Shown here: positions 55,585 through 60,428 of the stretch, piece after piece | How the letters are laid out: every line of letters begins with the position of its first letter | Position numbering within the stretch: position 1 is the stretch's first letter | Assembly: GCF_007641255.1 (NCBI RefSeq) | Contig: NZ_CP036259.1 | Location: 1,364,001 to 1,428,000, forward strand | DNA: 64,000 nucleotides | Direction: 5' to 3' | Source: Sporomusa termitida | Lineage (GTDB): Bacteria > Bacillota > Negativicutes > Sporomusales > Sporomusaceae | Translations under genes and position numbers: made by a program | Notes under the pieces: generated by a model | What the model was told of the DNA's origin: nothing | The model's input: the letters and a program-made list of their open reading frames with translations, nothing else | The model's database searches: none

Positions 55585-57284
55585 GACTCAAGGGGGACGG
55601 TTCGAAACCACTGATATAAGCCTGTTTTTTTTAACTAACCTTGGGTAAAAATCGGAGTCAATCGGCAATAGGCTGCAAAATTGACAATTTGTTGCATAAA
55701 CGCATGGCCGCAAAAGGATATCAGGGCTGCTATCCTTTTCAAATTTACGGCTAAGGCCGTCAGTTTGGCTTGCAGGGACATGCTTTTTAGACCATACCCC
55801 CGTGCACGGTCTAATCCATGGAAACGTTTCATTTCCCCGTTCTTCCACTCATGGCAGGCTCGCTTTTTGTACTTTAGCTTGAACTGATCGCTCTTGGCAA
55901 GCTGACTATGTTCGTAATATTGCGCGCAGTGTTCACTGACGCGCAGTACTTTTTTCTTCGTATTCTTGCCAGCACAGGTCAGCCGTTGCGGACACTGCAC
56001 ACAGTGCGATTTCACAAAATGATAGCGGTACACGTCATTTTTGTTCTTGTATTTTTGGCGCACTTTCTTCTCGGTATGATTGCCCATTTCGCAAAACCAC
56101 TGGTCGCTGTCTTTGTTGTAACTAAACCGGCTTTCGTCTAGCTTGTAGACACAGGCGTTTACGGGAATGATGGCTTCTACCGCCTCGGTTTGTAAGGTAT
56201 CTAAGATCGGTTTGCGAAAATAGGCCTTATCTCCATACACCTCTTGGATGGGTAAGCCGCAGGCTTTACTTCGCTGATACAATTCCTCAAATTGGCTGCC
56301 GTCCACATAGGCGCCGCTTTCCACTGTTACCGCCGTAATGATCCTTGTTTCCGGGAGCATGGCAAATTCTACTTTATAGCCGTAAAAGCTGTCTGTTTTT
56401 GATTTGTAGCCTACGCGCGCCTCTTTGTCTACCAGCGATCGGACTCCTTTTTGGACCATAAATTTCGGATCTTCCAGGATTTCTTTGGCTTCGTTAACCG
56501 CTTGTTGGCTGTTGGGCAGGATAGACAAATCGACATGGCTTTCGGTTTTCCCGATCAGTTCTTCCACATAGGACTTCATTTTCTGCTTCGCTTCGTTGTG
56601 GTCTTCTATGAGCTTATAGTCGGGAACTTCGCTAATGAGCTCGGCGGGGATTACCCCGTTTTCTTTCTCAATGGCCCTTATGATTCTTCTTCCCAGATGC
56701 TTCATGATTCTTTCCGGCACTTTTTTTTTAGTATTGGCCTGGGTATGCGTGGCGTCAATGCTTAGTCCGGTTCCTTTAATTATGCCTTTTTCCACACACT
56801 GGCGAACCACTTCCTGAATCATATCATCCACACTGGTTTCTTTTAGTCTATGTTTCCTAAACTTGGCCAGCAGGCTGGCGTCCGGCAGATCCTCTTCGGG
56901 ATTGAGTCCCAAAAACCACATATAGGCTAAGTTTAATCGGGCTTCTTCTATGACTTTGACATCGGATAAGTTATATAGATATTGCAAAATGAGGATCTTG
57001 GCCAGCATTTCCGGTTCTTTGGCCGGCCGCCCCAGATGCTGGCAGTACGAATCCTTCAGCAACTCGTTAATGAAGCTAAAATCCACATTACCAGCGATAA
57101 TCTTCAGAATATGATTACTGGGAATTTTATCATAGAGCACGCTATATATACTTAATTGGTGCGGCACATTTTTTAGCAAGGCAAGCCCCTCCATTACGCA
57201 AATATCTACCGTTATATTTTACCATAATTCAGGGGCGCTTGCTTTATTGACTTTTTCAGTGCTTTCGAACCGTCCCCTTGAGTC
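55585..57284 (-). mobile_element. IS1182-type insertion sequence, copy 2
   Basis: Inverted ends GACTCAAGGGGGACGGTTCGAAACCACTGA (from 55585) and TCAGTGCTTTCGAACCGTCCCCTTGAGTC (to 57284) surround the transposase. The left end is doubled: an extra copy at 55554-55582 lies 31 bases upstream. A partial second right end, CGTCCCTTGAGTC, follows at 57286-57298. This suggests insertion into, or next to, an older end of the same family. Confidence 0.88.
55635..57194 (-). CDS. IS1182-family DDE transposase, copy 2
   Basis: 519 residues, identical in almost all positions to the product of copy 1 (36253-37815), with the same YGDKAYFRKP core, CPQRLTC cysteine pair and HGLDRARGYG segment. Differences are few: one Ser to Cys (RASHEW to RACHEW) and a divergent final 18 residues. 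It is intact, so either copy could mobilise the MITE-like and solo ends in the window. Confidence 0.92.
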   Translation of the reverse strand: MEGLALLKNVPHQLSIYSVLYDKIPSNHILKIIAGNVDFSFINELLKDSYCQHLGRPAKEPEMLAKILILQYLYNLSDVKVIEEARLNLAYMWFLGLNPEEDLPDASLLAKFRKHRLKETSVDDMIQEVVRQCVEKGIIKGTGLSIDATHTQANTKKKVPERIMKHLGRRIIRAIEKENGVIPAELISEVPDYKLIEDHNEAKQKMKSYVEELIGKTESHVDLSILPNSQQAVNEAKEILEDPKFMVQKGVRSLVDKEARVGYKSKTDSFYGYKVEFAMLPETRIITAVTVESGAYVDGSQFEELYQRSKACGLPIQEVYGDKAYFRKPILDTLQTEAVEAIIPVNACVYKLDESRFSYNKDSDQWFCEMGNHTEKKVRQKYKNKNDVYRYHFVKSHCVQCPQRLTCAGKNTKKKVLRVSEHCAQYYEHSQLAKSDQFKLKYKKRACHEWKNGEMKRFHGLDRARGYGLKSMSLQAKLTALAVNLKRIAALISFCGHAFMQQIVNFAAYCRLTPIFTQG

Positions 57285-59282: not shown

Positions 59283-59438
59283 GACTCAAGAGAACCGTCC
59301 GTAACCACTGAAAAAGTCAATATTAAAACCGATTTCCTACAATATATTGAGAATGAAATTATATTGGACAACTATATATAGTATGTATTCGAGGACGAGT
59401 GGCACTTTTTCAGCAGTTTCGAACCGTCCCCTTGAGTC
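59283..59438. repeat. 156-bp MITE with IS1182-type ends
   Basis: GACTCAAGAGAACCGTCCG then TAACCACTGAAAAAGT at the left and ACTTTTTCAGCAGTTTCGAACCGTCCCC then TTGAGTC at the right form long imperfect inverted repeats. The AT-rich centre carries no transposase. The ends match the full copies at 36209 and 55585, so those transposases could move it. It has inserted into the 3' end of the minus-strand gene ending here. Confidence 0.8.
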
Positions 59439-59750
59439 TTGCTGCTGCAGGAAGGTCATAAGCTCCTGGCGGACCTGGCTGCTGTCCTTTAACCCCTGCC
59501 TGTAGGCAATTTCCGCCGCCTGCCCGGACTCCAGCGCCGCCCAAGCCTCGAAATCCATGACCAAACCGGTCATTTCCGGCTGCTCGGCCTTCAGGGCCCG
59601 GGCCAGCACCAGCAGCCGGTCCAGGGCGGCGCTGACTTCCCGGGCCGTTTTACTGTAGCCGGCATCGTTGGTGCCGGCCCGGTTGAGGATATGATCGACT
59701 CTGGTAAAAATGTACTGGTCAAAAGCCTGGGTTAACGTCCTGGTTAGCAT
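59337..59750 (-). pseudogene. small helical protein truncated by the MITE
   Basis: 137 codons on the minus strand starting MLTRTLTQAFDQYIFTRVDHIL. AGAGGA lies eight bases before ATG 59750. Residues 1-104, to FLQQQ, are native GC-rich sequence rich in helices (LDRLLVLARALKAEQPEM). Residues after that come from the MITE and end in low-complexity hydrophobic codons. A longer open frame upstream (to 59909) is Arg/Pro-rich and unlikely. No family was recognised. Confidence 0.55.
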
Positions 59751-60196
59751 TAGCCAATCCTCTTGTCCGGCCCCGGGCTGCTGGCGCCCCAAGCCCGGCG
59801 CCGGGCGCCGGCGGCCCGGCCGGCAGAGCGACCGCCGTCTGGATCTGGACGCGTAGACCGCTGGCCGGAGTTGGGTTCCGTTTTTATCAAACACATGTAT
59901 ACCCCCCATACTGAGGCTGGGGCAGAGTGCTGCAGGGCAGCACTGCCGCCAGCTTTTTACAGGGGGAAATCAAAAAACGCATGCGAGGTTTTTACCCTAC
60001 ACATGCGCTTGGCTTTGATGTCTGTTACATCCTCCATCCCAATAAGGCCGGACATAGCGGCCTGGCCAACAAGTTAGTCAGTGTTGGCCCTGCGGCCGAC
60101 AATTGGCTGGTGAGGAGAGGCTGAATGCGCTGCTGCGTCCAATCGCACTCACAGCCCGGCGCCGGCGGCAACGTCTTTTATACCTGTTCTCCCGGC
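59751..60196. other. unresolved region with an orphan reading frame
   Basis: Contains GC-rich Arg/Pro-coding sequence on the minus strand (59760-59880) and a plus-strand frame at 59927-60124 reading GFDVCYILHPNKAGHSGLANKL...ADNWLVRRG. That looks protein-like, but it has no good start or Shine-Dalgarno site. It could be the tail of a deleted gene. Confidence 0.25.
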
Positions 60197-60333
60197 TTGT
60201 CTTCCAGGCGAACGCCAGTGTATAATAGAAATGTCGTCGTGGACAGCTTGGCTGTTACGTGTAGGTGCCTTGGTTCACCTGCGCGGGCCTGGAAGTGGTG
60301 GTGACACTTTCAGGTCACGGCGATTTTTAATTT
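60197..60333 (+). ncRNA. candidate small RNA, cloverleaf-like, with own promoter
   Basis: Promoter TTGTCT (60197-60202), 18-base spacer and TATAAT (60221-60226) would start a transcript near 60233. A closing stem TCGTCGTG (60234-60241)/CACGGCGA (60316-60323) encloses three hairpins: ACAGC-TTG-GCTGT, AGGTG-CCTTGGTT-CACCT, and CCTGGAAGTG-GTGGTGA-CACTTTCAGG. A T-run, TTTTTAATTT, follows the closing stem. No reading frame of note. Three arms plus a closing stem resemble a tRNA only in outline; arm lengths and conserved tRNA bases do not fit. Confidence 0.6.
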
Positions 60334-60428
60334 CCACCTATTTCTAATTATAGCCTGTTTGCGGGGAATTGCAAGTACAGTTCAGCCGGCCGGCAGGGAT
60401 TTTTCCTGAAAGGACGGAGACCGAAACT

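Follow-up and report, generated by a model that had tools for sequence, protein, structure and literature searches.

A repeated cloverleaf RNA of Sporomusa termitida as a probable antisense attenuator of an adjoining small gene

What is the role of a compact, cloverleaf-like RNA gene with a promoter of its own in the chromosome of Sporomusa termitida? The question is raised by a stretch of 64,000 nucleotides (assembly GCF_007641255.1, contig NZ_CP036259.1, positions 1,364,001 to 1,428,000 of the forward strand), referred to here as the window, in which a first-pass annotation had proposed the RNA as a new family of small RNAs (sRNAs), sitting alone beside decayed sequence. Our answer is that the cloverleaf probably switches off a small gene that adjoins it, as far as can be judged from the sequence. 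With a probability of about 0.68, it would be a cis-antisense attenuator of this partner gene, following a logic like that of plasmid pT181 in a layout resembling that of type I toxin-antitoxin systems.

The structure and strand of the RNA, as well as both promoters of the cassette, its pairing capacities, its covariation, its association with the partner gene and the diversification of its loops, are read from the sequence. The promoter TTGTCT-18-TATAAT lies at 60197-60226 on the + strand, as had been annotated, and conforms to a family consensus CTTGTN..TATAAT, of which the -10 box and the CTTGT are kept in nearly all copies while the spacer is variable. The RNA itself (60233..60328, + strand, about 95 nt, with a presumed 5' end) is delimited by its fold, its covariation and 25 copies in the genome. 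Its predicted fold agrees with the first description: a closing stem of 8-9 bp (60233-60241 with 60316-60323), hairpin 1 (60242-60256), hairpin 2 (60258-60285), which carries the motif GUGUAGG, hairpin 3 (60288-60314), and a terminator-like end made of a run of five T (60324-60328). The minimum free energy (MFE) of the + strand is -53.2 kcal/mol (z -5.6), a value equalled by none of 200 shuffles, compared with a z of -1.4 for a slightly longer stretch of the minus strand.

Comparison of 63 diverse relatives gives the same picture. Paired cells of the cloverleaf are kept at 96.2%, against 31-48% when the partners are slid, both sides have changed at 10 pairs, and the compensatory changes fall mostly in hairpin 3. 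The covariation score reaches 0.177 against 0.109 ± 0.004 after shuffling (0 of 500), in line with the check on covariation among Sporomusaceae that had been suggested. G-U cells are frequent on the + strand (302, against 17 A-C cells, which would be G-U on the other strand), and pairing amounts to 96.2% on the + strand and 82.9% on the minus strand, so that the structured RNA is the + one; the mean fold z (-6.0 versus -3.2) points the same way. Loop lengths differ by single bases, which led us to discard a conserved open reading frame (ORF) within the RNA.

Regarding known classes, ARAGORN detects neither a transfer RNA nor a transfer-messenger RNA, in agreement with the initial judgement. 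That no nameable class fits also holds: Rfam 15 has no family at gathering score in the window, nothing appears up to E=5 around the element, and the wider stretch returns only chance-level matches up to E=10. The family is absent from the libraries searched and is not described in the open-access papers that were searched, and its sequence shows no detectable relation to that of any known family.

The 25 copies are dispersed over a genome of 5.3 Mb, and BLAST finds related copies in 23 of 60 genomes, the window's own included. A covariance model of the cloverleaf, built in this analysis and used for the class and phylum surveys, places the element in 30 of 300 sampled Negativicutes genomes, representing 15 of 97 genera. 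Outside this class, a phylum-wide draw of 398 genomes yields three, two of which belong to one genus, the other being a weak, unproven match. The copy numbers per genome derived from these surveys are lower bounds (9-12 candidates scored per genome). Named hosts are Sporomusa, Pelosinus, Propionispira, Propionispora, Anaerospora and Massilibacillus and, outside the class, Desulfosporosinus. Plasmids, phages and viral contigs gave no match to the element, the viral scan being one for an exact pattern. A weak covariance-model match of 44.5 bits in another genome of the phylum (L195, 139-244), with hairpins and a T-run, is a possible distant relative, as yet unproven, and was not used.

The RNA does not stand alone. 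A small, divergent protein gene adjoins all 25 copies in this genome, about 320-345 bp upstream and on the opposite strand. The partner in the window (59337..59894, minus strand) starts with GTG, encodes 185 amino acids as read here and is preceded by the Shine-Dalgarno sequence GGGGGG (59902..59907, minus strand). What had been taken for decayed sequence corresponds to the coding region of this gene together with its leader, and the gene carries a small inverted-repeat insertion at its 3' end. Just past the 3' end of the RNA lies the promoter of the partner messenger RNA (mRNA), TTGCAA-16-TATAAT (60347..60374, minus strand), which points back through the RNA gene. Transcription is predicted to start near 60340 and to traverse the entire cloverleaf on the complementary strand before reaching the partner gene, the first ~110 nt of the predicted mRNA being the exact complement of the cloverleaf. 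Of 133 distinct loci, 84 have this opposing promoter in its strict form; lineage variants such as TTGCAA-17-TAATAT are present in most of the remainder. Since the conserved opposing promoter makes the cloverleaf cis-antisense to the 5' untranslated region (UTR) of the partner, there is a better description than that of a standalone new sRNA: the structured RNA gene outside Rfam is upheld, and its solitary status gives way to a multi-copy element paired with a divergent small gene.

The leader of this mRNA has, in this order, a hairpin with GUGUAGG, a U/C tract such as CUUUUUAAUUUCCCCC, and the Shine-Dalgarno sequence. The terminator-like hairpin of the window (59977..60008, minus strand) shares its invariant 7-mer with hairpin 2 of the antisense RNA, and a hairpin with GUGUAGG in its 5' arm is present in nearly all loci, the stem showing a covariation of 0.162 against 0.120 when shuffled and at most 0.062 when slid. 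The tract that follows, TTTTTTGATTTCCCCCTGT (59959..59977, minus strand), would act both as the U-tract of this hairpin and as an anti-Shine-Dalgarno sequence, with which GGGGGG pairs in the predicted folds. The tract is complementary to the mRNA 5' end as well as to the Shine-Dalgarno sequence, and both pairings are mutually exclusive. In the window, this 5' end, TAGGTGGAAATTAAAAA (60324..60340, minus strand), has its complement both in the leader tract of the same mRNA and in the tail of the antisense RNA. Locus by locus, the tract resembles that tail, to which the mRNA 5' end is complementary: L053 has TTTTAAATTCCC on both sides, and further cases are CTTTCGATTC in L131 and ATAATTTCC in L144. 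When each tract is set against the 5' end of its own locus, the helix scores 30.3. Permuting the pairs lowers this to 27.98 ± 0.27 (0 of 5000), and shuffling the 5' ends lowers it to 15.7.

Folding of partial and complete leaders is consistent with a switch between these pairings. While the leader hairpin still lacks its 3' arm, GUGUAGG is predicted to pair with CCUACAC of the mRNA 5' domain, with a mean probability of 0.665 over 83 loci; with the leader complete and the Shine-Dalgarno sequence not yet made, the tract is predicted to pair with the mRNA 5' end. Pairing between tract and Shine-Dalgarno sequence is predicted in most of 68 modelled leaders and increases from 1.09 to 1.38 (relative units) upon masking of the first 125 nt of the mRNA to mimic a bound antisense RNA. 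In 55 of the 68, the Shine-Dalgarno sequence is further closed by masking and more open with the 5' domain free.

The cassette would thus consist of an antisense RNA, the cloverleaf, and of a partner mRNA made from the opposing promoter. In the absence of the antisense RNA, the 5' domain of the mRNA would pair first with GUGUAGG in the 5' arm of the hairpin and then with the U/C tract, so that the terminator would be hindered and the Shine-Dalgarno sequence left open. When present, the cloverleaf would make first contact through its exposed loops and go on to bind the 5' domain, and the tract would be released. The terminator-like hairpin could then stand, the tract would mask the Shine-Dalgarno sequence, and the gene would be off. 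Transcription, duplex formation, repression and termination, together with any toxicity of the product, are what we infer here.

The loops at which this contact would start are hypervariable. Loop 2 (60268..60275, + strand), the proposed locus-specific contact site, has 24 distinct versions among the 25 copies of the genome, and its combination with loop 3 (60298..60304, + strand), a proposed second contact site, is unique in all 25. The mean departure from the majority in this genome is 0.415 for loop 2 and 0.370 for loop 3, i.e. 37-42%, which equals that of unrelated flanking sequence, compared with 0-4% in the stems and 16-19% in the promoter spacers. The loops differ even in recent duplicates that are otherwise nearly identical: L010 and L016 show 0 of 85 differences in the stems, 0 of 16 in the spacer, 6 of 234 in the leader and an identical RNA tail, whereas 6 of the 7 loop 2 positions differ; between L020 and L023, gene and leader diverge by 3.7%, yet 9 of 16 loop positions are different. 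This fits locus-specific recognition, since neutral drift in an unconstrained loop is not expected to outrun the spacers this far, whereas selection for such recognition would. As each copy has its own loops, each antisense RNA would silence mainly its own gene. Loop changes are also what separates plasmid incompatibility groups. In the laboratory, they separate non-cross-reacting pairs of engineered attenuators (PMC3753616).

Several points weigh against attenuation by the cloverleaf. About a third of the loci lack the strict opposing promoter, a few having lost it through an intron or another insertion. The permutation test of tract and 5' end ignores the relatedness of the loci. The MFE fold of many leaders, most of those of this genome among them, masks the Shine-Dalgarno sequence even with the 5' domain free; the ON state would then have to arise kinetically or depend on some additional factor. 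Few of the partner proteins, which are diverse, have a known function, and some of their ORF starts in distant loci, picked by rule, may be wrong. Finally, GUGUAGG is invariant in all lineages, in the leader hairpin as in hairpin 2 of the antisense RNA, and this exceeds what pairing alone requires; a protein or ribosomal target shared by the motif of both RNAs is possible.

This invariance, within a leader stem that varies around the motif, is also the argument for a protein decoy, in which one RNA-binding protein would recognise the GUGUAGG...CCU hairpin of cloverleaf and leader, the cloverleaf would titrate this protein, and the antisense overlap would be secondary. We regard it as unlikely, because it leaves unexplained the locus-by-locus match between tract and 5' end, the conserved opposing promoter and the hypervariable loops. 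These loops, distinct from copy to copy, are, together with the RNA's own promoter and stable fold, what a stand-alone, trans-acting sRNA family would display if its members paired with distant mRNAs through them; the near-perfect linkage to a divergent gene with its leader, and a convergent promoter that yields a fully complementary transcript, make this slightly less probable still. An inert palindromic repeat, similar to a miniature inverted-repeat transposable element (MITE) and folded only incidentally, would account for 25 dispersed copies and is very improbable given the compensatory changes, the G-U strand bias, the promoters conserved while spacers vary, and the retention across genera and into Desulfosporosinus. 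The variable loops also led us to consider the bridge RNAs of IS110 elements, a candidate rejected since the linked partners are all small proteins, with no recombinase gene among them.

A close precedent for an antisense attenuator of this kind is the repC leader of pT181, which in its dual transcription/translation form couples termination to occlusion of the ribosome site once the antisense RNA has removed the antiterminator (PMC5435934). As in pT181 (PMC5435934), an antisense RNA would be transcribed opposite the leader, kissing hairpins would form, and an antiterminator would sequester the 5' arm of the terminator until antisense binding led to termination and ribosome-site occlusion. Here, the leader has a predicted terminator (hairpin and U-tract), with whose 5' arm a segment further upstream could pair (predicted P 0.665). 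Contrary to pT181, where a plasmid rep gene is controlled, the element is chromosomal, multi-copy and linked to small genes, without matches in plasmids or phages; the masking of its Shine-Dalgarno sequence would fall to the tract that follows the terminator stem rather than to that stem, and its antisense RNA is a cloverleaf.

The layout is that of type I toxin-antitoxin systems such as TisB/IstR-1, Zor/Orz and LDR, where a divergent small gene is accompanied by an antisense RNA whose complement is part of a long 5' UTR, at a distance from the start codon; the LDR locus, too, is repeated within one genome (PMC4147584). At the sequence level, the cloverleaf is fully complementary to part of the predicted mRNA of the adjacent small gene, since the opposing promoter sits past the 3' end of the RNA and the predicted mRNA holds the whole complement. 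In contrast to those loci, most partners here are soluble-looking helical proteins instead of small hydrophobic peptides. A minority are SymE-like (PF08845) and accompanied by an antisense RNA, as in SymE/SymR of Escherichia coli (PMC4147584). SymR overlaps the start codon and ribosome site (PMC4147584), whereas in this genome about 220 nt separate the end of the overlap from the leader hairpin downstream, and the cloverleaf belongs to a structured family different from SymR. Membership in SymE/SymR was rejected: more than 300 bp separate the cloverleaf from the start codon, SymE is just one among several kinds of partner, and the partner family of the window has no match to the SymE domain above cutoff. 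The AapA/IsoA systems of Helicobacter pylori (PMC8167048) also have several paralogous loci per genome, with a Shine-Dalgarno sequence sequestered by long-range pairing and antisense recognition through kissing loops, both predicted for the present element. The switch would differ in opposing the mRNA 5' end to a leader tract, with no evidence here for an interaction between 5' and 3' ends.

As for the partner proteins, 23 of the 25 RNA copies adjoin a family with a conserved, all-helical domain of 104 residues (59439-59750, minus strand, in the window), two members being truncated and one frameshifted. The other two partners are a SymE-like protein (PF08845, E 3.6e-11) and a helix-turn-helix protein. 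Searching the genome for the main family returns 24 loci, 23 with the RNA alongside and a single orphan that has retained the leader and lost the RNA. This family has no Pfam match above cutoff, the SymE domain being found only in L031 and other loci, and its resemblance to DUF6809 is limited to a 20-residue match with 78% probability. An AlphaFold model is all-helical, of low confidence (pLDDT, the predicted local distance difference test, 59). In other loci, the partners range from DUF6809 proteins (8e-24 in L048) and SymE-like proteins to several small families that have no match in Pfam. In the window, a MITE-like insertion with 35-nt inverted arms (GACTCAAGAGAACCGTCC...; 59283..59438) begins exactly where the conserved domain ends and displaces the stop codon of the partner. 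A full-length transposase-like ORF of 519 amino acids (55635-57194, minus strand) lies ~3 kb from the cassette.

Two further observations concern the leader and its promoter. An insertion of ~580 bp that starts with GTGCGCAC is shared, with 97% identity, by Sporomusa and Pelosinus at the same site just past the RNA (around 3145-3720 in L015, and downstream of the RNA in L068 and L069), and in L068 it leads into a reverse-transcriptase/maturase-like ORF. It is probably a group II intron that recognises the terminator region and removes the opposing promoter. In L217 (1117-1165; G000:C1, about 566617-566665), a solitary leader hairpin (GCGCATGTGTAGGGTATAAAGCCTCGCATGCGCTTTTT), downstream of another gene and with neither RNA nor partner, is perhaps reused as a plain terminator.

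More tentatively, with the odds somewhat against it, the family may represent a natural library of non-cross-reacting antisense attenuators, in which one scaffold would control many unrelated small genes in spore-forming Negativicutes and Desulfosporosinus. In each new duplicate, the loops would be the first part to change, whether under strong selection or through a process dedicated to diversifying them, giving 25 independent switches in one cell. Cross-talk among antisense RNAs has so far been studied mainly through plasmid incompatibility and engineered attenuators, and genomes with as many as 25 paired copies would offer a natural test of how it is avoided among RNAs with a common scaffold. 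Through this common control, the element would also give access to several families of uncharacterised small proteins, among them DUF6809-like and SymE-like ones.
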